Positions 6,009 to 57,866 of a stretch of 64,000 nucleotides of DNA are shown here, in pieces (positions within the stretch are counted from its first letter, which is position 1; each line of letters starts with the position of its first letter). Made by a program: the position numbers and the translations under genes. This DNA is from Sanguibacter sp. HDW7 (GTDB taxonomy: Bacteria > Actinomycetota > Actinomycetes > Actinomycetales > Cellulomonadaceae): positions 1,302,001-1,366,000 of the forward strand of contig NZ_CP049862.1 of NCBI RefSeq assembly GCF_011300875.1. The letters are read 5' to 3'. The notes under the pieces were generated by a model. The model was not told the DNA's origin and did not search any database. It saw nothing but the letters and a program-made list of their open reading frames with translations.

Positions 6009-8819
6009 GTGGCAAAGATCCGCGTGTACGAGCTCGCCAAGGAGCTCGGTGTGGAGAGCAAGGAGCTCATGACGAAGCTCAACGACATGGGTGAGTTCGT
6101 CAGGTCGGCGTCGTCGACCATCGAAGCACCCGTCGTTCGTCGTCTGCGCGACGCGCTCCCGGCAAAGGCCCCCGAGGCCGCTGCCGAGGCGCCCGCGAAG
6201 CGTCCTGCGGCGCCCAAGGCGCCCGCGAAGGCCGCCCCGGCACCCGAGGCGCCCGCGCCCGTCGCCGAGGCACCTGCGGCGCCCGCGCCCGCCGCCCCGG
6301 CGGCACCGACCCCCGCACCTGCAGCTCCGGCCCCGTCCGCCCCTGCGGCCGCGGCCCCGGCCGCGCCGCGTCCCGGCGCGCCCCGTCCCGGCCCCGCGTC
6401 CGAGCGTCCCGCTCGCGGTCCGCGCCCGGGCAACAACCCGTTCGCGCCCAGCCAGGGGATGCCCCGTGGCGAGCGCTCCGGCGGTCCCCGCCCGGGCAAC
6501 AACCCGTTCGCGCCCAGCCAGGGCATGCCCCGTCCCGGTGCGCGTCCGGCTCCTGCGGCGTCCGACGCTGCCGCGACGGGCGAGCGCTCCGGCGGTCCCC
6601 GTCCCGGCGGTCCCCGTCCGGGCGCCCCGCGTCCGGGTGGTCCCCGTCCTAACCCCGGCATGATGCCCGGCAAGACGCAGCTCGGTCGTCCGGGCGCGGG
6701 TGCCGGCGCAGGTGCGGGTGGCGGACGTCCCGGTGGCGGCGGCGGTCGCGGCGGCTACGGCGGTGGCGGCGGCGGTGCAGCTCGTCCCGGCGGCGGTGGC
6801 CCCGGTGCTGGTGGCGGCGGCGGCTTCGCCGGTCGTCCCGGCGGCGGTGGCGGCGGTCGTCCCGGTGGTGCCGGTCGTGGCAGCACGCAGGGTGCCTTCG
6901 GGCGCGCCGGCGGCCGCCCCGTGCGCGGACGGAAGTCGAAGCGCGCGAAGCGGCAGGAGTTCGAGCAGATGCAGGCGCCGTCGCTCGGCGGCGTGCAGGT
7001 CCCCCGTGGGGACGGCTCGACGATCGTCCGCCTGCGTCACGGCTCGTCGCTCAACGACTTCGCCGACAAGATCGACGCGAACCCCGCCTCGCTCGTCACG
7101 GTGCTCTTCCACCTCGGTGAGATGGCGACCGCGACGCAGTCGCTCGACGAGGACACCTTCGGGTCGCTCGGCGCCGAGCTCGGCTACGTCATCGAGATGG
7201 TCTCGGCCGAGGAGGAGGACCGCGAGCTGCTCGAGGCCTTCGACATCGACCTTGACGCCGAGCTCGAGGGCGAGTCCGACGAGGACCTGCTCCCGCGTCC
7301 TCCGGTCGTCACCGTCATGGGCCACGTCGACCACGGCAAGACGCGTCTTCTCGACGCGATCCGCCGGACCGACGTCGTCTCGGGCGAGGCCGGCGGCATC
7401 ACGCAGCACATCGGTGCCTACCAGGTGCGTCGTGAGCACGAGGGCATCGACCGTGCGCTGACGTTCATCGACACCCCGGGTCACGAGGCCTTCACGGCCA
7501 TGCGTGCCCGTGGTGCCGAGGTCACCGACATCGCGATCCTCGTGGTCGCGGCCGACGACGGCGTCATGCCGCAGACGGTCGAGGCGCTCAACCACGCCCA
7601 GGCCGCCGGTGTCCCGATCGTCGTCGCGGTCAACAAGATCGACAAGGAGTCCGCGAACCCCGCGAAGATCCGTCAGCAGCTCACCGAGTACAACCTGGTG
7701 GCTGAGGAGTACGGCGGCGACACGATGTTCGTCGACGTCTCCGCGCGTCAGGGTCTGCACATCGACGAGCTCATCGAGGCGGTCCTCCTCACGGCGGACG
7801 CCGCGCTCGACATGCGTGCGAACCCCAACAAGGACGCGCGCGGTGTCGCGATCGAGGCGAACCTCGACAAGGGCCGCGGTGCGGTCGCGACGGTCCTCGT
7901 CCAGCAGGGCACGCTCCGCGTCGGCGACGCGATCGTCGCGGGCACGGCCTACGGCCGTGTGCGTGCGATGTTCGACGAGCACGGCAACACCGTCGACGAG
8001 GCGACCCCGTCGCGTCCGGTCCAGGTGCTCGGTCTCACGTCGGTGCCGCGCGCTGGCGACAACTTCCTCGTGGCGTCGGACGACCGCACGGCCCGCCAGA
8101 TCGCTGAGAAGCGTTCGGCGGCCGAGCGTGCGGCGACCCTCGCGAAGCGTCGCAAGCGCATCAGCCTCGAGGACTTCACGAAGGCCCTCGAGCTCGGCAA
8201 GGTCGAGACGCTCAACCTCGTCATCAAGGGTGACGTCTCCGGTGCGGTCGAGGCCCTCGAGGACTCGCTGCTCAAGATCGACGTCGGCGAAGAGGTCCAG
8301 CTGCGTGTCATCCACCGCGGTGTCGGTGCGATCACGCAGAACGACGTCAACCTCGCGACGGTCGACAACGCCGTCATCATCGGCTTCAACGTCCGCACCG
8401 CGGAGCGTGTCGCCGAGATGGCGGACCGCGAGGGTGTCGACATCAAGTTCTACTCGGTGATCTACCAGGCGATCGACGACGTCGAGGCGGCCATGAAGGG
8501 CCTCCTCAAGCCGGAGTACGAGGAGGTGCAGCTGGGCTCCGCGGAGATTCGCGAGGTCTTCCGCTCCTCGAAGTTCGGCAACATCGCCGGTTCGATCGTC
8601 CGGTCGGGCATCATCCGTCGCAACACCAAGGCGCGCGTCCTGCGTGGCGGCGTCGTCATCGGCGACAACCTCTCGATCGAGTCGCTCAAGCGGTTCAAGG
8701 ACGACGCGACCGAGGTCCGCGAGGGCTACGAGTGCGGTATCGGACTCGGGTCGTTCAACGACCTCCAGGCCGAGGACGTCATCGAGACGTGGGAGATGCG
8801 CGAGAAGCCTCGCGCGTGA
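6009..8819 (+). CDS. infB: Translation initiation factor IF-2
   Basis: A 936-residue IF-2. The N-terminal IF2_N module ([20 protein letters not shown]) is followed by an Ala/Pro-rich then Gly/Arg-rich linker (about residues 55-305), a basic stretch ([16 protein letters not shown]) and the GTPase core: G1 GHVDHGKT (438-445), G3 DTPGH (488-492), G4 NKID (542-545). Domains II-IV end at about residue 930. The GTG start follows GGAGAGAA. The linker contains a 45-base tandem duplication encoding [13 protein letters not shown] twice (6423-6467 and 6489-6533). It delivers initiator tRNA and promotes subunit joining. Confidence 0.98.
6423..6533 (+). repeat. 45-bp direct repeat inside the IF-2 linker
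   Basis: Bases 6423-6467 and 6489-6533 are identical except one position. Both encode [15 protein letters not shown] in the same frame, so this is an in-frame internal duplication of the disordered linker, not a mobile repeat. Confidence 0.9.
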
Positions 8820-49599: not shown

Positions 49600-51219
49600 A
49601 TGTCCACGACGCCCGCACCCCACGCCGCGCCCGCTGCACCCGCAGCCGACGCCACTGCCGCACGCACCTACATGGTGCGCACGCTCGGCTGCCAGATGAA
49701 CGTCCACGACTCCGAGCACATGTCCGGCATGCTCGAGGAGGCCGGCTACGTCCGCGCGAGCGCCGTCGACGAGGCCGCGAGCCGCGCCGACGTCGTCGTC
49801 ATCAACACGTGCGCCGTCCGTGAGAACGCGGCGAGCAAGCTCTACGGCAACCTCGGCCAGCTCGCCGAGATGAAGCGCGACCGCCCCGGCATGCAGATCG
49901 CCGTCGGCGGCTGCCTCGCGCAGAAGGACCGCGCCGGCATCGTCGACCGTGCCCCGTGGGTCGATGTCGTCTTCGGCACGCACAACCTCGACGCGCTGCC
50001 CGTCCTTCTCGAGCGCTCGCGCCACAACGCGGCCGCCGAGGTCGAGATCGCGGAGTCCCTCCAGGTCTTCCCGTCGACGCTCCCGACGCGCCGCGAGTCC
50101 GTCTACGCGGGCTGGGTGTCGATCTCCGTCGGCTGCAACAACACGTGCACGTTCTGCATCGTGCCCCACCTACGCGGCAAGGAGCGCGACCGCCGACCGG
50201 GCCAGGTGCTCGCCGAGGTCGAGGCCCTCGTCGCCGCGGGCGCGATCGAGGTCACGCTGCTGGGCCAGAACGTCAACTCCTACGGCGTCGAGTTCGGCGA
50301 CCGTGGCGCGTTCGCGAAGCTCCTGCGCGCGTGCGGCCAGATCGAGGGCCTCGAGCGCGTCCGCTTCACGAGCCCGCACCCCGCCGCGTTCACGGACGAC
50401 GTCATCGACGCGATGGCCGAGACCCACAACGTCATGCCGCAGCTCCACTTCCCGCTGCAGTCCGGCTCCGACCGCGTCCTGCGCGCCATGCGACGCTCAT
50501 ACCGCTCGGAGAAGTTCCTCGGCATCCTCGAGAAGGTCCGTGAGCGCATGCCCGACGCGGCCGTGAGCACCGACATCATCGTCGGGTTCCCGGGGGAGAC
50601 CGAGGAGGACTTCCTCGAGACCCTCCGCGTCGTCGAGGCCGCCCGCTTCACCAACGCCTTCACGTTCCAGTACTCCCCGCGGCCCGGCACGCCCGCCGCA
50701 GACCTCCCGGACCAGCTGCCCAAGGAGGTCGTCCAGGAGCGCTTCGAGCGTCTCGTCGCGCTGCAGGACCGCATCTCCGAGGAGGGTTCCGCGGCCCAGC
50801 TCGGCCGCGAGGTCGAGGTCCTCGTCGCCGAGAGCACGGGCCGCAAGGACTCCGAGACCCACCGCGTCACGGGTCGCGCCCGCGACAACAGGCTCGTCCA
50901 CGTCGAGCTGCCCGCGGGTGCTCCGCACGCCGTCGAGGGCATCGACGACCCGCGCCTCGCCGACGACGTCGGCCCGCGCCTGCCGCGTCCGGGCGATCTT
51001 GTCGTCACGCGCATCACGCGCACCGCGCCCTACCACCTCGTCGCCGACCGCACCGAGGGCGACGACCGCTTCGAGGTCCGTCGCACGCGCTCGGGCGACG
51101 CGTGGGTCACGCGCGAGCGTGCCCGCCTCGGCCTCGGCGGCGACGAGCACTCGCACGGCTCGGCACCCGCACCCGGCACGCCCGTCGTCCTCGGGCTCCC
51201 CGTCGTCCGGCGGTCCTGA
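49600..51219 (+). CDS. miaB: tRNA-2-methylthio-N6-dimethylallyladenosine synthase
   Basis: A 539-residue radical-SAM methylthiotransferase acting on tRNA position 37 after MiaA. The N-terminal UPF0004 domain carries Cys31, Cys71 and Cys105 for the auxiliary cluster; the radical-SAM triad is Cys179, Cys183 and Cys186 in CNNTCTFC; a TRAM domain (about 420-495) follows. An N-terminal Ala/Pro extension and a C-terminal tail of about 45 residues after TRAM are not conserved. The last 22 bases, including the stop, are duplicated directly downstream. Confidence 0.97.
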
Positions 51220-51242
51220 CCCCGTCGTCCGACGGTCCTGAC
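51199..51242 (+). repeat. 22-bp tandem duplication spanning the miaB stop
   Basis: 51199-51220 and 51221-51242 are identical but for one base. The first copy holds the miaB stop; the second is untranslated. A recent slippage or duplication event is the simplest explanation. Confidence 0.85.
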
Positions 51243-51290
51243 ACGCCCGTCACCTCGGGCCCGAGGGCCGGCACCGCCGGACCCGCACGC

Positions 51291-51328
51291 ACAGACGCCC
51301 GCCACGAAGAATCGTGGCGGGCGTCTGT
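51291..51328. terminator. Bidirectional terminator between miaB and the ybjN cluster
   Basis: A perfect 17-bp stem (51291-51307 with 51312-51328) with an AGAA loop, placed between convergent genes. Confidence 0.8.
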
Positions 51329-51351
51329 CGTCGGACCTGCGTCGCGGCGGC

Positions 51352-51840
51352 TCAGCCCTCGGACTGCTCCTCGCCCGCCGGCGGGAGCTCGGGCAGCCCG
51401 AAGGACGGCGCCTGCGTGTCGAGGTGCTCGAACGCCATCATCGCGGTCTCGAGGCCGGACATGAGGATGACGTCGAGCTGCTCCGCGGTCACACCGTGCT
51501 CGAGGTCGGTCGAGGACTCGGCGTGCACGTCGAGCAGGTCCGTCTCCGTGTTGACGCGCGCATACATCTTGGGAAAGACGCGCTCGCGGTTCCACTCGTT
51601 GAGCGCCCGCAGGAGCGTCGCCTTGTGCTCGGGCTCGACCGAGCGGCTCCACGTGCCGCGGACCTGGAAGATCTCTTCCTTGTCGCCCATGAGCATGAAC
51701 CACACGCGGTGCTCGTCCCAGTTCCCGCCGAAGTCGCCGTCGTCGTCCGTGACGTAGTGGAACTCGTGCGCATCCAGGATGCCCTGGACCATCTCGCGGG
51801 TCAGCGGGAGCGGCACGGGGCCGGTGTTGGGGGTGTGCAC
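51352..51840 (-). CDS. YbjN-domain protein 1
   Basis: A 162-residue protein of the YbjN (PF10722) type. It shares with its two paralogues the pattern DDDGD-x(n)-W, FQVRGTWSR, NEWNRERVFPKMYARV and STDLEHG. Members of this family are thought to adopt a fold like type III secretion chaperones and to have regulatory or chaperone-adaptor roles, none proven here. GTG start with GAGGT five bases upstream inside the stop region of YbjN 2 (8-base gap), so the two are one transcript. The C-terminus is acidic and Pro-rich (LPPAGEEQSEG). Last gene of the cluster. Confidence 0.88.
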   Translation of the reverse strand: MHTPNTGPVPLPLTREMVQGILDAHEFHYVTDDDGDFGGNWDEHRVWFMLMGDKEEIFQVRGTWSRSVEPEHKATLLRALNEWNRERVFPKMYARVNTETDLLDVHAESSTDLEHGVTAEQLDVILMSGLETAMMAFEHLDTQAPSFGLPELPPAGEEQSEG

Positions 51841-51848
51841 GGTGGACC

Positions 51849-52418
51849 TCACAGGGCGGGGGACTGGGCGACGGGGTCGGGGTAGCGCTCGTCGAGCGCG
51901 TCGAAGAACGACGTGCCCGAGGCGAGGCCGCACCTGACGATCTGACGGATCTGGGCGTCGTTGGCGCCCTTCTCGAGGTCGACCGCGACCTCGGCGCTCA
52001 CGGAGACGGCGCCGTCGTCGCGCACGCGGACGTAGGCCTTCGGCCAGATCCGCTCGGTGTTCCAGTCGTTGATGAAGTCGAGGATCTCGTCGAGGCGCTC
52101 GATGCTCGCCTCGCGGCTCCACGTCCCGCGGATCTGGAGGAAGGTCGGCACGTCCCCGTAGAGGACGAAGAGGAACATGCGCAGCTGCCAGAAGCCGATG
52201 CAGTCGCCGTCGTCGTCGACGCCGAAGTGCGCGCCGTCAGCGCGCAGGATCTGCGCGAGGCGCTCGGACGTGATCGGCGTGGGGAACAGACCGGGGTCCG
52301 ACGTGGTCGGTGAGGGGTCGGCCCCGTCGAACGGCGAGACGGGCACGGGCTCGGGCTTCGCGGGCCGCTGTGCGGACGGCTCCGGCGTGTTCTTGGGTCG
52401 ACGGCTCCAAAAGGACAT
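51849..52418 (-). CDS. YbjN-domain protein 2
   Basis: A 189-residue YbjN-type protein with a Pro/Ser-rich N-terminal extension (1-48) not found in the other two paralogues. The shared signature reads VDDDGDCIGFW, FLQIRGTWSREAS, NDWNTERIWPKAYVRV and AVDLEKG. It has its own leaderless-type promoter (TAGCCT, 6 bases before the ATG) although it lies only 86 bases after the TPR gene, so the pair YbjN 2-YbjN 1 can be expressed apart from the chaperone genes. Confidence 0.88.
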   Translation of the reverse strand: MSFWSRRPKNTPEPSAQRPAKPEPVPVSPFDGADPSPTTSDPGLFPTPITSERLAQILRADGAHFGVDDDGDCIGFWQLRMFLFVLYGDVPTFLQIRGTWSREASIERLDEILDFINDWNTERIWPKAYVRVRDDGAVSVSAEVAVDLEKGANDAQIRQIVRCGLASGTSFFDALDERYPDPVAQSPAL

Positions 52419-52424
52419 GCCAGC

Positions 52425-52430
52425 AGGCTA
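52425..52430 (-). promoter_or_regulatory. Leaderless-type -10 element (TAGCCT) for YbjN 2
   Basis: TAGCCT on the minus strand, 6 bases before the ATG at 52418. Confidence 0.55.
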
Positions 52431-52504
52431 GTCGTTCCACGGGGACGTCGCGGCGTGGACCGGCACCGTTCGCTCACCGCGTGACGGGGCCGGTCCCACG
52501 TCCG

Positions 52505-54436
52505 TCAGCGAGCGTCGTCCGCGATGCGCGCGAGGAGCGCAGGCCCCTCGTCCGCACGACCGAGGCGGCCGAGCACGTCGAGCGCCTCGTCGCTCACGGA
52601 CGACGCGAGCCGCGTCTGCCTCGTCGCGCTGAAGAGCGTCGCGGCCGCCGCGAGCGGCTCGAGAGAGCCGGCGAGGTCGCCCGCGGCGGCAAGGCTCTTC
52701 CCGAGGAGCCACGTTGCGTGGGCCTCGTCGACCCGAACCCCCGCGGCGCGGTGCGCCTCCGCGGTCGCGCGGGCCTCGGCGGCGGCCTCCGTGAAGCGAC
52801 CCACCGTCGCGAGCAGCCGGGCGCGGGTGTCGCGCAGCTCGAGGGCCTCGAGCCCGTTGAGGCGGACCTCCCGCTCCGGGAGCGCGCTGCCGTGGCCGGG
52901 CGCCGTCGCGGCGTCCGCCGCGGGCTCCGTGAGCTGCGCGACGAGCCTGTCGATCGTCCCGAGGAGCGCCGTGACGTCGTCGTCCCGGGTCGTCGAGCGC
53001 GCCGCGGCCCGCGCGATCTGGCCGATGTCGCGTGGGTCGACCTCGTCCGCGACGAGGAGCGCGAGCGCACGTCGGAAGCCGGTCGCTGCACCGTCGTGGT
53101 CGTCGAGCCGGGCCGCGAGGGCCGCAGCCTCGGCGAGGGCGATGCCTGCCGTGTGGAGGAGCCCGGCCGCCTCGGCCTCCCGGGCCGCCTCGCGGTAGAG
53201 GCCGGCCGCGGCGAGCGGCTCGTCCTCCTCGGCCTCGGCCGCCGCCTCGAGGAGTCTCTCGACCACGTCCTCGTCGCTGTCGTCCTCGGAGGCGGCGGCC
53301 GGCGCGGCGCCCGCCGCCGGGGCCGCGTCGAAGCTCAGCACGCCGAGGTCGACGTCGAGCGTCCGGCCCGCCCGCTCCCGCGCGTCAGCGAGGTGCCGGG
53401 AGGCGACGTCGTTGCCGTTGCGGGCGTCGAACGCGGCCGCGATCTCGTCGGCCTGCACGTCGACCCAGGCCGCGAGGCCGGCGACGTCGGACGCCGGCAC
53501 GCCCGGGAGCGACACCGCGGTCCGCGGCTCGTCCGCCTCGAGCACGCGGGCGGCGATCCCGACGTGGGTGAGGACGGCGAGGCGCGCGCCCGGGTCGCGC
53601 GATCCGGTGACGACGTCGGCGATGCGCTCGAGCATGCGTAGCGCCCGCTCGGTGTTCCCGGTGCGCGCGAGCACCTCGACATACCGCGAGGTCGGGCCCG
53701 AGAGGTCGTAGGGGCCGTCGAGGTGGCGGACGCCGCGGAAGTGGGCGCGCCGCACGCCCTCGACGTCACCGAGCTCGAGGTACGCGAGCTGCAGGTAGGA
53801 GAGCATGTCGGCAGGTTCGGTCGCACAGTGTGGGTCGTCGGGGAGCACGGACTCGATGAGGCGTGCGGCCTCCTCGCTCCGTCCGACGTCGACGAGGTAG
53901 GCGGCCCGGTCGCCAGGCTCGCACGCCTCGCACTGCGAGTAGTCGTCGCGCGGCGTGGCGACCCACGCGTCGTAGGCGGCGTCGACGGCCGCGTCGTCGG
54001 GGCTCGAGTGTCGCAGCCACTTGTAGGCGCTGAGCCGTACTGCGTTCATGCCGCGACCCGAGACGGCGAAGCGCTGCTCCATGTCGGCGAGCGTCGCCGC
54101 GATCTGCTCCGCGGTCACCGTCGGAAAGTCGATGAGGTGCCCGGTCATCCACTTGAACGACCAGAACAGCGAGTGGGAGTCCTGCTCGTCGAAGAGGTCG
54201 GGACGCTCGTCGTAGAGGCGCAGCGCGCGGGTGAAGGGGACGAAGGCCTTGTCGACCTCCTCGCCCCACACGTAGGAGTCGACGAGGGTGTTGTACGCGT
54301 AGGCGAGCACCTCGGCGGGACCCTCGGCCTCGATCTGCTCGACCTCGGCGAGGGCCGCGGCCGAGCGCGTCGCGCCGTACGGGAGGTTGTTGACGGCGTT
54401 GAGGGCCGTGCCGGCCTCGAAGCTCGAACGGGTCAT
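52505..54436 (-). CDS. Tetratricopeptide-repeat-type protein coupled to the Hsp90-like gene
   Basis: A 643-residue protein made almost wholly of Ala/Leu/Glu-rich helical hairpins with TPR-like spacing (for example VLAYAYNTLVDSYVWGEEVD, AARLIESVLPDDP, ALRMLERIADVV and TWLLGKSLAAAGDLAGSLE). An acidic stretch (ASEDDSDEDVVERLLE, about 400-425) divides it into two arrays. A CEAC motif near residue 170 is unusual for such a protein and could bind metal or be redox-active. No signal peptide, so cytosolic. Its ATG overlaps the stop of the Hsp90-like gene (ATGA), implying 1:1 coupled synthesis. I infer a co-chaperone or scaffold role. Confidence 0.8.
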   Translation of the reverse strand: MTRSSFEAGTALNAVNNLPYGATRSAAALAEVEQIEAEGPAEVLAYAYNTLVDSYVWGEEVDKAFVPFTRALRLYDERPDLFDEQDSHSLFWSFKWMTGHLIDFPTVTAEQIAATLADMEQRFAVSGRGMNAVRLSAYKWLRHSSPDDAAVDAAYDAWVATPRDDYSQCEACEPGDRAAYLVDVGRSEEAARLIESVLPDDPHCATEPADMLSYLQLAYLELGDVEGVRRAHFRGVRHLDGPYDLSGPTSRYVEVLARTGNTERALRMLERIADVVTGSRDPGARLAVLTHVGIAARVLEADEPRTAVSLPGVPASDVAGLAAWVDVQADEIAAAFDARNGNDVASRHLADARERAGRTLDVDLGVLSFDAAPAAGAAPAAASEDDSDEDVVERLLEAAAEAEEDEPLAAAGLYREAAREAEAAGLLHTAGIALAEAAALAARLDDHDGAATGFRRALALLVADEVDPRDIGQIARAAARSTTRDDDVTALLGTIDRLVAQLTEPAADAATAPGHGSALPEREVRLNGLEALELRDTRARLLATVGRFTEAAAEARATAEAHRAAGVRVDEAHATWLLGKSLAAAGDLAGSLEPLAAAATLFSATRQTRLASSVSDEALDVLGRLGRADEGPALLARIADDAR

Positions 54437-56340
54437 CGGGGGTCTCCTTCGTGCGGCGGTGCAGAGGGGTCGGTCGACGACGGCGGCGCGAACGCGCCGT
54501 CGAGCAGGGTACGTAGCGCGCCGTCGAGCAGACGCGCCTCGCCGTCGTGCAGGGGTCGGCCCGAGGCGAGCAGGCTCGTGACGTAGAGCGCGTGGACGCC
54601 CGCGTCCTGCACGGGGCCGGCGTCGCCGGCGAGCAGCGCGCGCACGGTCGCGTTGTCGTCGTTGAGGACGAGCCGCCGGGGACGCGCGGGCTTCGCGAGC
54701 CCCGCGACGATGCCTCCCCACAGGTCGTCCGCCGCAGCGGCCGTCGCGGCCGCGGCGCGTGCGTGGTCGCCCTCGGTGTCACGCAGGAGCAGCGCGGGCA
54801 GCGTCGTCGGCTCGAAGCGGCGCAGCACGACGTCGCAGTCGGCCGACCCGAGCGCCGTGGACGCCGCCGCGAGCGCGTCGGTCACCTCGAGCTCGCGCAG
54901 CGGCTCGACCTCCTCGAGCGTGTGCGCGACGTCGTCCGCCGCGACGCGGGAGACGCGCCACGCGGGGAAGCGCGCCGCGACGCGGGCAAGGAGCTCGTCG
55001 TCGTAAACATAGCCGCCGTTGACGAGCAGCAGGTCCTGGGCGGCGGCGACGGGCGCGAGCCGACGGAACTCCTCGAGGTCGGTCGTGAAGAGCAGCCGCT
55101 CGCCCGCGAGCCGGTCGGCCGCGTCCGCGAGCGTCGTCGTGCCGAGGGTCGACTCGAACGGGAGCACCTGGGCCGCGAGCTCGAGCATCTCGTCGTCCTG
55201 GAGCGCGAGCGCGCGCACCGCGAGGTGGTGCGTGCGCAGGAACGCCGTCGCGAGCGGTGAGCGCTCGGCGAGCGTGGCGAGCAGCCACGCGCGCACCTGA
55301 CGGCCGAGCGCGTCACGCGTCGCGACGAGCACCTCGTCGTCGTAGAGGCCCTCGCGGGAGGCCGTCGGGCGCAGGGCCGCGACGTCGACGACGCACCGCA
55401 CGAAGAACGCCCAGGGCGGCAGCAGGTCGGCCGTCGCAGTCGAGAGCAGCATGCGCCTCAGGTAGACACGGTGGTGCGCAGTGCTCGTCGGCGCGAGCGC
55501 CGCGGGCAGGACGTACGCGACGCCCGTGAGGCCTGCGAGCGGGATGTCGAGGTCGATGCGGGCGAGCGGCGTGAAGCCGAGCGTGCGCTCGGCGTACGCG
55601 GTGAGCCGTCGGTCGCGCTCGACCGCCGGCGCCGTGCCCGTGGCCCAGGGGAGCGCGGGAGCGCTCACGCGACGCCCCACGGACGTCCCGTCCTCGAGCG
55701 TCGTCGTGACGATCACGGGGACGGGCAGCAGCCCGCCGACGTCCTCGGCGAGCGCCATGACGGTCTCTGCCGCGAGCCAGTGCTCCATGTCGCGGCGGGG
55801 GTGCAGCCGGACGAGGCTTCCTCCGTCCGCGGGGACGTCCGGGTCGTCGTGCGCGATCTCGGCGAGCTCGTAGCGGCCGTCGGCGTGCCCGAGCCATCGC
55901 ACGGGCGGCGCGCCGGTGTCGCGGGCCGAGCGCGAGACGAGCTCGATCGTCTCGGCGACCATGAACGCGGAGAGCAGCCCGATGCCGAACTGGCCGAGAA
56001 ACTCCTCACGTCCCGCACCGAGGTCCTCGTCGCGCTTGGAGGACCGGCCGATCGTCGCGAGCAGCTCGACGGCCTCGGTCGGCGTGAGGCCCACGCCGTC
56101 GTCGCGCACCTCGAGCGACCCGTCGGCGCACGGCGTCACGAGGATGCCGCCCGCACCGCGCTGAGCCTCGGGCAGCAGACCGCGCGCGGTGAGCGCGTCG
56201 ACGCCGTTCTGGAGGAGCTCGCGCAGGTAGACGCGCGGGCTCGAGTAGAGATGGCGGGCCAGGAGGTCGACGACGCCGTGGAGGTCGACCTGGAACGCGG
56301 CCCGCGAGTCTGGTGCGCCCTCGCGGGCCGCGGAGGTCAC
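54433..56340 (-). CDS. Hsp90-family (HtpG-like) ATPase
   Basis: A 635-residue divergent Hsp90. The GHKL nucleotide pocket is intact: YLRELLQNGVDAL with catalytic Glu41 and Asn45, VRDDGVGL (Asp81-Gly82) and GQFGIGLLSAFMVA (117-130). The lid region GRSSKRDEDLGAG follows. The middle-domain catalytic Arg appears in RPTASREGLYDDE. The C-terminal third is Ala-rich and weakly conserved and lacks the MEEVD tail of cytosolic eukaryotic Hsp90. It looks like a specialised paralogue rather than the general HtpG. GTG start overlaps the YbjN 3 stop (GTGA); its own stop overlaps the TPR gene. Confidence 0.88.
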   Translation of the reverse strand: MTSAAREGAPDSRAAFQVDLHGVVDLLARHLYSSPRVYLRELLQNGVDALTARGLLPEAQRGAGGILVTPCADGSLEVRDDGVGLTPTEAVELLATIGRSSKRDEDLGAGREEFLGQFGIGLLSAFMVAETIELVSRSARDTGAPPVRWLGHADGRYELAEIAHDDPDVPADGGSLVRLHPRRDMEHWLAAETVMALAEDVGGLLPVPVIVTTTLEDGTSVGRRVSAPALPWATGTAPAVERDRRLTAYAERTLGFTPLARIDLDIPLAGLTGVAYVLPAALAPTSTAHHRVYLRRMLLSTATADLLPPWAFFVRCVVDVAALRPTASREGLYDDEVLVATRDALGRQVRAWLLATLAERSPLATAFLRTHHLAVRALALQDDEMLELAAQVLPFESTLGTTTLADAADRLAGERLLFTTDLEEFRRLAPVAAAQDLLLVNGGYVYDDELLARVAARFPAWRVSRVAADDVAHTLEEVEPLRELEVTDALAAASTALGSADCDVVLRRFEPTTLPALLLRDTEGDHARAAAATAAAADDLWGGIVAGLAKPARPRRLVLNDDNATVRALLAGDAGPVQDAGVHALYVTSLLASGRPLHDGEARLLDGALRTLLDGAFAPPSSTDPSAPPHEGDPR

Positions 56341-56807
56341 TCCGAGTCCGCCGGGGCCCAGTCGGGGTGCGCCTCGCTGAGGTGGTCGAAGAACTGGATG
56401 CCCGTGAAGATGCCGCACTTGAGCAGCTGGTCGAGCTGGTCGTCCGCGACGCCGTGCTCGAGGTCCGTCGAGACCTCGGTGTAGACGCCCGTCTCCGAGT
56501 CGTCCGGCCGCGTGTAGACCTTCGGCCAGATGCGGTCGCGGTTGAACTCGTCGACGAGCGGCAGGACCGAGGTCTGCTCCGAGAGCGGGACGGTGCCGGC
56601 GTAGCGCCCGCGGATCTGGAGGATCTCCTCCTGCTTGCCCATGAGGAAGAAGTAGAACTGGTGACCGTCCCAGAAGCCGTAGGTGTCACCGTCGTCGTCC
56701 GTGCCGAAGCGCCATCCCGAGGCCTCGAGGAGAGCCTGGATGCGCTCCTGCGTCACCGGTGCGTTCGTCGCGAGGGGCTCGGCCCCCGGCTTGGTGAAGA
56801 AACCCAT
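56337..56807 (-). CDS. YbjN-domain protein 3
   Basis: A 156-residue YbjN-type protein and first gene of the cluster. Shared signature: TDDDGDTYGFW, ILQIRGRYAG, NRDRIWPKVYTR and STDLEHGVADDQLDQLLKCG. It is translationally coupled to the Hsp90-like gene by a GTGA overlap, so a direct partnership is likely. AAGGGGA precedes the ATG. TAGTGT (minus strand, 56861-56856) is a plausible -10 element giving a leader of about 40 bases. Confidence 0.88.
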   Translation of the reverse strand: MGFFTKPGAEPLATNAPVTQERIQALLEASGWRFGTDDDGDTYGFWDGHQFYFFLMGKQEEILQIRGRYAGTVPLSEQTSVLPLVDEFNRDRIWPKVYTRPDDSETGVYTEVSTDLEHGVADDQLDQLLKCGIFTGIQFFDHLSEAHPDWAPADSE

Positions 56808-56855
56808 GTCGTCCCCTTGCTCGTGGCGGGCAGGCTTACGACCTGCATCGGCGTC

Positions 56856-56861
56856 ACACTA
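56856..56861 (-). promoter_or_regulatory. -10 element (TAGTGT) for the YbjN 3-Hsp90-TPR operon
   Basis: TAGTGT on the minus strand, 49 bases before the ATG at 56807. It diverges from the miaA -10 element 25 bases away. Confidence 0.4.
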
Positions 56862-56886
56862 GCGAACGCCACGGACATCCGCGGGA

Positions 56887-56892
56887 TAACAT
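56887..56892 (+). promoter_or_regulatory. Leaderless-type -10 element (TAACAT) for miaA
   Basis: TAACAT, 8 bases, then the GTG at 56901. Confidence 0.5.
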
Positions 56893-56900
56893 CTCGCCTC

Positions 56901-57866
56901 GTGAGCGAGAGAACCGTCGTCGCCGTCGTCGGCCCGACCGCGACCGGGAAGTCCGACCTTGGGGTCGACCTGGCCCTCGCCCTGGGCGCGGCCGAGGTCG
57001 TCAACGCCGACGCCTACCAGCTCTACCGGGGCATGGACGTCGGCACCGCAAAGCTCACGGCCCCCGAGCGTCGCGGCGTGCCGCACCACCAGCTCGACGT
57101 CCTCGACCCCGCGCAGGACGCGTCGGTCGCCGTCTACCAGCGCGAGGCCCGCGCGGACCTCGCGGCGCTCGACGCGCGCGGCTGCCGCGCGATCGTCGTC
57201 GGTGGCTCCGGGCTCTACGTGAGGTCGCTCCTCGACCGCATGGACTTCCCGCCGACCGACGCCGGCGTGCGCGCCCGCATCGAGGCACGCGCCGAGAGCG
57301 AGGGTCCGCGCCCGCTGCACGACGAGCTCACGAGGCTCGACCCCGTCGCCGCCGCGGGCATCCTGCCGGGCAACACCAAGCGCATCGTGCGCGCGCTCGA
57401 GGTCATCGAGATCACCGGCGGCCTCTTCAGCTCCCATCTGCCCGTCGCCGAGCACCTGCGGCCCACGGTGCAGATCGGACTCGACTCGCCGCGGGACGAG
57501 CTCGACGCCCGCGTCGAGGCCCGCGTCGAGCGGATGTGGGAGCAGGGGCTGCTCGACGAGGTCCGGGCGCTCGACGCCGCGGGCATGGGCCGCACGGCCC
57601 GTCGCGCCGTCGGGTATGCCGAGGCGCTCGAGCACCTCGCCGGCCGCCTCACCGCTGCCGAGGCCCGCGAGGCCACCGCTGCCGCGACCCGCCGCCTCAC
57701 GCGCAAGCAGATGGGCTGGTTCGGCCGCGACGCGCGCACCGTGTGGCTCCCCGCGGGTGCCCCCGACCTGCTCGAGCGCGCTCTCGACGTCGTCGCCCGC
57801 GCGGACGCGGGCACGCTGGACGTGCCCCGCACGGGCGAGCCCACGCGCCGTAGCCTGGGTTCATGA
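56901..57866 (+). CDS. miaA: tRNA dimethylallyltransferase
   Basis: A 321-residue MiaA that transfers a dimethylallyl group to A37 of tRNAs reading UNN codons; MiaB, encoded 5.7 kb upstream, then adds the methylthio group. The P-loop is GPTATGKS (11-18), followed by NADAYQLYRGMDVGTAKLT, GGSGLYVRSLLD and the C-terminal RRLTRKQMGWFGRD. GTG start placed by the -10 element and P-loop spacing. The stop overlaps the dapF ATG (ATGA). Confidence 0.97.
   Translation: MSERTVVAVVGPTATGKSDLGVDLALALGAAEVVNADAYQLYRGMDVGTAKLTAPERRGVPHHQLDVLDPAQDASVAVYQREARADLAALDARGCRAIVVGGSGLYVRSLLDRMDFPPTDAGVRARIEARAESEGPRPLHDELTRLDPVAAAGILPGNTKRIVRALEVIEITGGLFSSHLPVAEHLRPTVQIGLDSPRDELDARVEARVERMWEQGLLDEVRALDAAGMGRTARRAVGYAEALEHLAGRLTAAEAREATAAATRRLTRKQMGWFGRDARTVWLPAGAPDLLERALDVVARADAGTLDVPRTGEPTRRSLGS
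57851..57856 (+). promoter_or_regulatory. Internal -10 element (TAGCCT) for dapF
   Basis: TAGCCT inside the end of miaA, 6 bases before the dapF ATG. dapF thus has both translational coupling to miaA and a possible leaderless promoter of its own. Confidence 0.45.

Follow-up and report, generated by a model that had tools for sequence, protein, structure and literature searches.

A PRK14083-lineage Hsp90 gene paired with a TPR gene in actinobacteria and joined by a YbjN gene in one clade

Which of the genes between miaB and miaA in Sanguibacter sp. HDW7 belong together, and do they encode a bacterial Hsp90 with partner proteins of its own? We examined this question in a 64,000-nucleotide stretch of contig NZ_CP049862.1 (positions 1,302,001 to 1,366,000; hereafter the window), in which a minus-strand cluster encodes an Hsp90-family ATPase (Hsp90L), a tetratricopeptide repeat (TPR) protein, and three YbjN-family proteins (YbjN-H, YbjN-a, and YbjN-b). 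The original prediction, made from the sequence alone, had placed all five genes in one dedicated ATPase-scaffold-adaptor chaperone module. The five genes are instead two units, YbjN-H/Hsp90L/TPR and the YbjN-a/YbjN-b pair (51352–52418), and the module consists of two genes, Hsp90L and TPR, in most actinobacteria seen and of three in one clade. The adjacency of a side-branch Hsp90 and one TPR protein, in part with YbjN, in many actinobacteria suggests a dedicated multi-part Hsp90 machine. The linkage of three genes in the predicted module thus stood, whereas the YbjN-a/YbjN-b pair is separate and no conserved eukaryote-style docking tail was found. The features of the cluster are as follows.

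56337..56807, minus strand: YbjN-H, YbjN-family protein, 156 amino acids (aa), ATG start, module gene 1, PF10722 83.1 bits
56337..56340, minus strand: GTGA overlap of the YbjN-H stop and the Hsp90L start, read in the sequence
54433..56340, minus strand: Hsp90L, Hsp90-family ATPase of the NCBIfam PRK14083 lineage, 635 aa, GTG start
54433..54436, minus strand: ATGA overlap of the Hsp90L stop and the TPR start, read in the sequence
52505..54436, minus strand: TPR partner, 643 aa, ATG start, solenoids at ~1–358 (N-terminal) and ~385–643 (C-terminal TPR superhelix)
51849..52418, minus strand: YbjN-a, 189 aa, ATG start, first of the separate pair beside miaB, PF10722 81.4 bits
51352..51840, minus strand: YbjN-b, 162 aa, GTG start, second of the separate pair, PF10722 97.7 bits
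ending at 51219, plus strand: miaB, flanking the cluster
56901..57866, plus strand: miaA, flanking the cluster

Transcription on the minus strand runs YbjN-H, Hsp90L, TPR, YbjN-a, YbjN-b, with gaps of 86 nt between TPR and YbjN-a and 8 nt between YbjN-a and YbjN-b. The five consecutive genes in this order, the two 4-base overlaps that link the first three, and the position between miaB and miaA were all found as predicted.

The distribution of the two core genes was determined in three genome samples. Of the 61 family genomes sampled, 22 carry the TPR protein and 22 a PRK14083 match over the cut-off; the two sets are identical (13 of 25 genera), and the two genes are adjacent in all 22. Because the same 22 of 61 genomes carry both, chance is a poor explanation of this co-inheritance, although the genomes are related and represent fewer than 22 independent events. 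The TPR gene lies directly downstream of Hsp90L in 79 of the 80 named loci, which are the best 80 of at least 582 relatives; the exception (L131) is a contig end. In the phylum sample (396 genomes), PRK14083 exceeded the cut-off in 12 genomes and the TPR family occurred in 13, with 11 in common; the count of 13 is 15 hits minus G187 and G337, which match the generic repeat part only. In G385 (L096), the only one of the 12 without a member of this TPR family, a divergent Hsp90L gene is followed by that of another TPR protein (297 aa), and the stop of the first and the ATG of the second share four bases. The TPR N-terminal domain occurred at 59 places in 49 genomes of the class sample (394 genomes), and Hsp90L stands beside it at 53 of these places, one of them a second tandem copy. 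Pairs were also found in Bacillota, in Paenibacillus (L184, 714.8 bits) and Listeria (L185, 799.4 bits); this reach beyond Actinomycetota rests on plasmid-collection records. Our own codon-score gene caller, used in the fetched loci, fails where they are G+C-poor, and the linkage counts were therefore taken from profile hits on six-frame open reading frames. Conservation of the neighbourhood beyond close relatives, as the prediction implied, holds clearly for YbjN-H, Hsp90L, and TPR; YbjN-a and YbjN-b are also present without Hsp90L.

Mid-scoring second copies (175–192 bits) share a genome with PRK14083 in G083, G188, G253, G295, and G306 of the phylum sample and are presumed to be HtpG. In the 61 family genomes, the range from 43.2 to 631.2 bits is empty of NF010683 matches, hence no mid-scoring copy was found there. 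The Streptomyces-like genomes G221 and G083 (L086/L087 and L088/L089) each carry two diverged Hsp90L-TPR pairs, on different branches of the Hsp90L tree.

In regards to the identity of Hsp90L, its score against NF010683 (PRK14083, "HSP90 family protein") was 687.4 bits over residues 12–618, above the cut-off of 455, and its score against canonical HtpG (NF003555) was 131.1 bits, below the cut-off of 371. By these profile scores Hsp90L is a member of the PRK14083 lineage and not a canonical HtpG, whose fold and nucleotide pocket it shares. E41, N45, D48, D80, G82, G84, G116, G119, and R329 were invariant in an alignment of 18 sequences, as expected from the predicted intact nucleotide-pocket motifs, and we take these residues to have the corresponding pocket and catalytic roles. 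GRFG replaces GQFG in two of the 18. Up to residue ~620, the predicted model superposes on full-length Hsp90 structures, and it contains N-terminal, middle, and C-terminal domains; the C-terminus that had been described as divergent is so in sequence and not in predicted fold. The full set of Hsp90/HTPG markers tabulated in PMC1525184 (Chen et al. 2006) is present in the window protein: Y38, REL 40–42, N45, D48, G82, G84, GQFG 116–119, G174, P308, and SRE 328–330, with positions set by eye and aided by a TRAP1 alignment. The same paper had already separated HTPG Groups A, B, and C in 2006 and lists two HTPG copies in Streptomyces coelicolor; its main text contains no occurrence of "operon", "adjacent", or "TPR". 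The Group A signature given there (IGQFGVGFY and PLN) is absent from the window protein, which has LGQFGIGLL and RPTASRE, and PRK14083 probably corresponds to Group C. The PRK14083 lineage itself is thus already known.

The model of the window TPR protein is an all-helical solenoid (predicted local distance difference test score, pLDDT, 92.8), as expected of a helical-repeat fold. Its N-terminal solenoid (~1–358) contains C169, C172, C204, P208, and an FDxRN motif, and resembles MalT domain III by fold match. The cysteine triad is kept in 158 of 161 TPR rows, a biased count, as the rows were recruited by a profile (A4) that contains those cysteines and was built mostly from Hsp90L-linked members. 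The window protein lies below the Pfam TPR-repeat cut-offs, and its relatives L084 (TPR_12) and L092 (TPR_8) lie above them; sequence relatives among solved structures were mostly generic or designed TPR, SNAP, and kinesin light chain proteins. The median length was 654 aa for YbjN-linked TPR proteins (n = 49, range 622–756) and 954 aa for those linked to Hsp90L only (n = 53, range 320–1079). The medians leave out ten loci with a cut or broken TPR gene, removed by hand, as well as L096, L131, and L142, which gave no usable length; the Hsp90L-only set includes proteins of 320, 353, 673, and 678 aa, of which that of 673 aa comes from L121, a cut locus with no assignable YbjN state. The idea that the long TPR proteins contain a fused YbjN was considered and rejected, as an unfiltered search of 46 TPR proteins >750 aa with a YbjN profile gave a best E value of 0.14.

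In Listeria L185 (8797–10765), two short TPR paralogues of 324 and 320 aa, both with the cysteine triad, stand in tandem behind the Hsp90-family gene. In L244 (6467–8641, genome G771), Hsp90L is followed by two TPR copies, the first without the three cysteines at the aligned positions.

We then placed the YbjN genes on trees, which were obtained by quick searches with Shimodaira–Hasegawa-like approximate likelihood ratio test (SH-aLRT) support only and midpoint rooting, with several long branches flagged. The Hsp90L tree omits L035, L044, and L046 (duplicates of L104, L113, and L110) and L187, and labels L121 and L131 as cut; the YbjN tree omits the same three duplicates; and the TPR tree omits these, ten twice-fetched loci, and TPR pieces of <250 residues or <60 bits, and labels the tandem second copies L043, L130, and L150 "alone" though they are in module loci. 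Among the 115 rows of the Hsp90L tree, one clade of 57 rows (SH-aLRT 100) holds all 54 YbjN-linked loci, together with two cut loci and L142; outside it, none of 58 loci was YbjN-linked. YbjN lies upstream in 47 of the linked loci and downstream in seven, the latter all Propionibacteriaceae metagenome-assembled genomes. The 4-base register from YbjN to Hsp90L was available in 18 of the 47 loci with YbjN upstream, so tight translational-register coupling of YbjN and Hsp90L is common but not universal. TPR and YbjN were also found together without Hsp90L in the stretch, at L190 (where YbjN overlaps TPR by four bases), L240 (order YbjN-TPR-YbjN), and L188; L190 and L240 are sisters from one genus, and all three lie outside the main YbjN clade of the TPR tree. 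Genome G614 carries L240 and also a normal Hsp90L-TPR pair (L245). Since TPR is found with Hsp90L alone and with YbjN alone, TPR looks like the common partner or hub, as judged from gene neighbourhoods.

In Actinomyces oris L188 (4172–8889), YbjN and a second YbjN-like gene (283 aa; 18.6 bits, below the Pfam cut-off) precede TPR, with no Hsp90L in the fetched stretch, which was the only part searched for it. The TPR tree labels this locus "alone" as YbjN is beyond the distance limit; annotation and Pfam show two YbjN genes upstream.

Taken together, we consider it rather probable that these genes encode an Hsp90 module that is self-contained and transferable, with TPR as its adaptor and, in one clade, YbjN as a further one, the complex being read from gene linkage. 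Hsp90L would act as the ATP-driven dimeric clamp of the PRK14083 lineage, and TPR would be a dedicated partner whose two stacked helical solenoids bind Hsp90L, control its ATPase, and hold or present clients. The cysteine triad of the N-terminal solenoid is probably a small metal or redox site by which TPR is stabilised or gated. In the one clade, YbjN-H, with its secretion-chaperone-like fold, would be a second adaptor that binds via TPR; we would guess that it takes over part of the role that the longer TPR C-terminus has elsewhere.

Eukaryotic Hsp90 works with TPR co-chaperones such as Hop, FKBP51/52, and CHIP, which dock on a conserved C-terminal acidic peptide of the MEEVD type, and to our knowledge TPR co-chaperones are usually missing from accounts of bacterial Hsp90. 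The likeness between the two systems is an Hsp90 paired with a TPR protein. Unlike eukaryotic Hsp90, Hsp90L has no conserved acidic C-terminal docking peptide across the listed rows; by contrast with the eukaryotic co-chaperones, the bacterial TPR protein is a large double solenoid, and common descent is unsupported. A Hop ortholog is described as absent from bacteria in PMC7688965. The more general proposal is that bacteria own an Hsp90-TPR co-chaperone machine, in which a side-branch Hsp90 has, in almost every sampled genome, a large TPR adaptor with a cysteine-based metal or redox site and, in one clade, a YbjN subunit of secretion-chaperone fold; it is tentative, and we give it somewhat less than an even chance. 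If it is true, the Hsp90-TPR pairing either was not invented by eukaryotes or has two origins, and the TPR protein represents a new family of co-chaperones.

A near-obligate gene partner makes a little-studied Hsp90 lineage a testable machine with handles on its clients, the YbjN link is a possible working context for a widespread "putative regulator" family, and the cysteine triad offers residues for point mutants. YbjN-H is a member of the family of Escherichia coli YbjN, AmyR, and DR1245 (PF10722), and the neighbours described for DR1245 homologues differ (e.g., Xaa-Pro dipeptidase); in the YbjN-family paper PMC5398634, Hsp90 is named once, in the reference list. No paper that links Hsp90L, TPR, and YbjN was found in the open-licence literature, and neither was an open-licence publication on the near-obligate TPR partner, the cysteine triad, or the YbjN link, judged mostly by title and abstract.

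Several observations weigh against the module as we propose it. The C-terminal 14 residues have no motif common to the listed Hsp90L rows, though small groups do have tail motifs, such as TQEDV in some Cellulomonas and EENR in others. The TPR start codon overlaps the Hsp90L stop in 61 of the 113 loci with a TPR gene there, so the Hsp90L tail sequence overlies the start region of the next gene in these loci. Docking of TPR on the Hsp90 tail in the eukaryotic manner, as the prediction's eukaryotic parallel would suggest, therefore found no support. YbjN linkage arose in few lineages and its count comes mostly from one clade, inside which L142 is an Hsp90L-TPR pair without YbjN. TPR stands without Hsp90L at six of the 59 class-sample places (L189, L190, L208, L240, L241, and L243; L208 judged from 1.5 kb flanks), four of them also without YbjN, and orphan YbjN-H-like genes occur without Hsp90L in L100, L101, and L103. 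On the YbjN tree, the upstream Hsp90L-linked YbjN proteins need six changes, and one clade is not established; 16 linked YbjN proteins, that of the window included, group with YbjN-a/YbjN-b (support 97, midpoint rooting), and the branch that parts YbjN-a/YbjN-b from all other rows has a support of only 85. Either the root lies on the support-85 branch, or YbjN was acquired or exchanged more than once. As to heat-shock control, neither a HAIR nor a CIRCE site was found near the cluster, the one HAIR match being far off at 8256 with three mismatches (0.66 expected by chance). A promoter scan of 51150–57000 gave no sigma-70-type site; the scan covers G+C-rich promoters poorly.

In L142 (9977–13428), the sole main-clade pair without a YbjN neighbour, the CxxC motif of the TPR protein is altered as well.

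The strongest alternative is that TPR is a client, namely a sensor or regulator with a cysteine switch that is matured by a private Hsp90 and regulated by YbjN-H. The MalT domain III match would fit such a role, but a match to a helical-repeat fold does not establish function; the model consists of helical repeats from end to end and gives no hint of a DNA-binding or catalytic domain, and places with TPR and no Hsp90L are few (6/59). We regard this explanation as unlikely, at about one chance in a few.

The second alternative is co-transfer only, in which a mobile operon carries genes whose products are not one machine. The three-gene unit has indeed been re-sited: it lies with mia genes in 27 loci and elsewhere in 19 (at least 5 kb on both sides and no mia genes in the stretch), with eight stretches too short to decide, and miaB-miaA is one site among several. 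The patchy occurrence within one family (22/61) and the 4-base registers in only part of the loci are further points in favour of co-transfer. However, no other gene family was seen travelling with the module genes. Around the 19 loci without mia linkage, just the three module families are common to five or six lineages, and the next groups, which are transporter and regulator superfamilies read from first residues, occur in at most three; in this survey, three of the 19 loci had no called genes and some had few. Because just these three families recur across the re-sited loci, the natural unit is three genes. Moreover, the Hsp90L-TPR pair occurs in two phyla, YbjN switches sides yet stays in the unit, and at L096 the overlapping position next to the divergent Hsp90L is filled by another TPR protein. 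These results make co-transfer alone improbable, and we keep to the Hsp90 module with its TPR and YbjN adaptors.

The original view of all five genes as one module draws on the finding that the only three YbjN genes detected in the 3.35 Mb genome, all above the PF10722 gathering cut-off of 22, lie at this locus, on the grouping of the window's YbjN-H with YbjN-a/YbjN-b, and on the 12 readable mia-type family loci, window included, in which the pair and the module are neighbours. However, YbjN-a and YbjN-b form two clades of their own on the YbjN tree (32 rows each, SH-aLRT 97 and 95, respectively), with YbjN-H placed outside both, and the pair lies beside miaB in genomes without Hsp90L (L099–L103, of which L102 is from the window's own genus). 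YbjN occurs in 57 of the 61 family genomes versus 22 with PRK14083 over the cut-off, and modules elsewhere are without the pair in the fetched stretch. YbjN-a is probably not part of the Hsp90L module, and the five-gene view, already weakened, is now very improbable. The orphan YbjN of L101 branches beside the YbjN-H of L038, a locus of the same genus, as its sister; this suggests that the Hsp90L-TPR pair was lost there and YbjN left behind. A single-sequence phmmer search of YbjN-H against solved structures gave no matches.

L035 (identical to L104) is Flavimobilis rhizosphaerae, of the same genus as the window. The record L108 bears the name Sphaerisporangium cinnabarinum; both the Hsp90L tree and the YbjN tree place it close to Cellulosimicrobium, and it is possibly mislabelled or contaminated.

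An anti-phage or conflict system is the least probable explanation and can hardly be credited: weak PADLOC matches of Hsp90L to TmtA and a restriction enzyme (E values 3e-4 to 0.05) and a weak TIR-like tail match in a distant Pseudanabaena Hsp90 point to it, but the PADLOC matches span residues 17–138 alone, i.e., the shared ATPase domain, and no neighbour family recurs across lineages, the neighbours not having been screened with defence models.

The Pseudanabaena locus itself (L187, plasmid NZ_AP017561.1, 5944–8577) encodes a distant member of the Hsp90 family (877 aa), in which residues 723–775 weakly match the CAP12/Pycsar TIR domain (E value 0.001, below the cut-off). Its gene has a TIR-domain gene upstream and, two genes downstream, a TPR gene.

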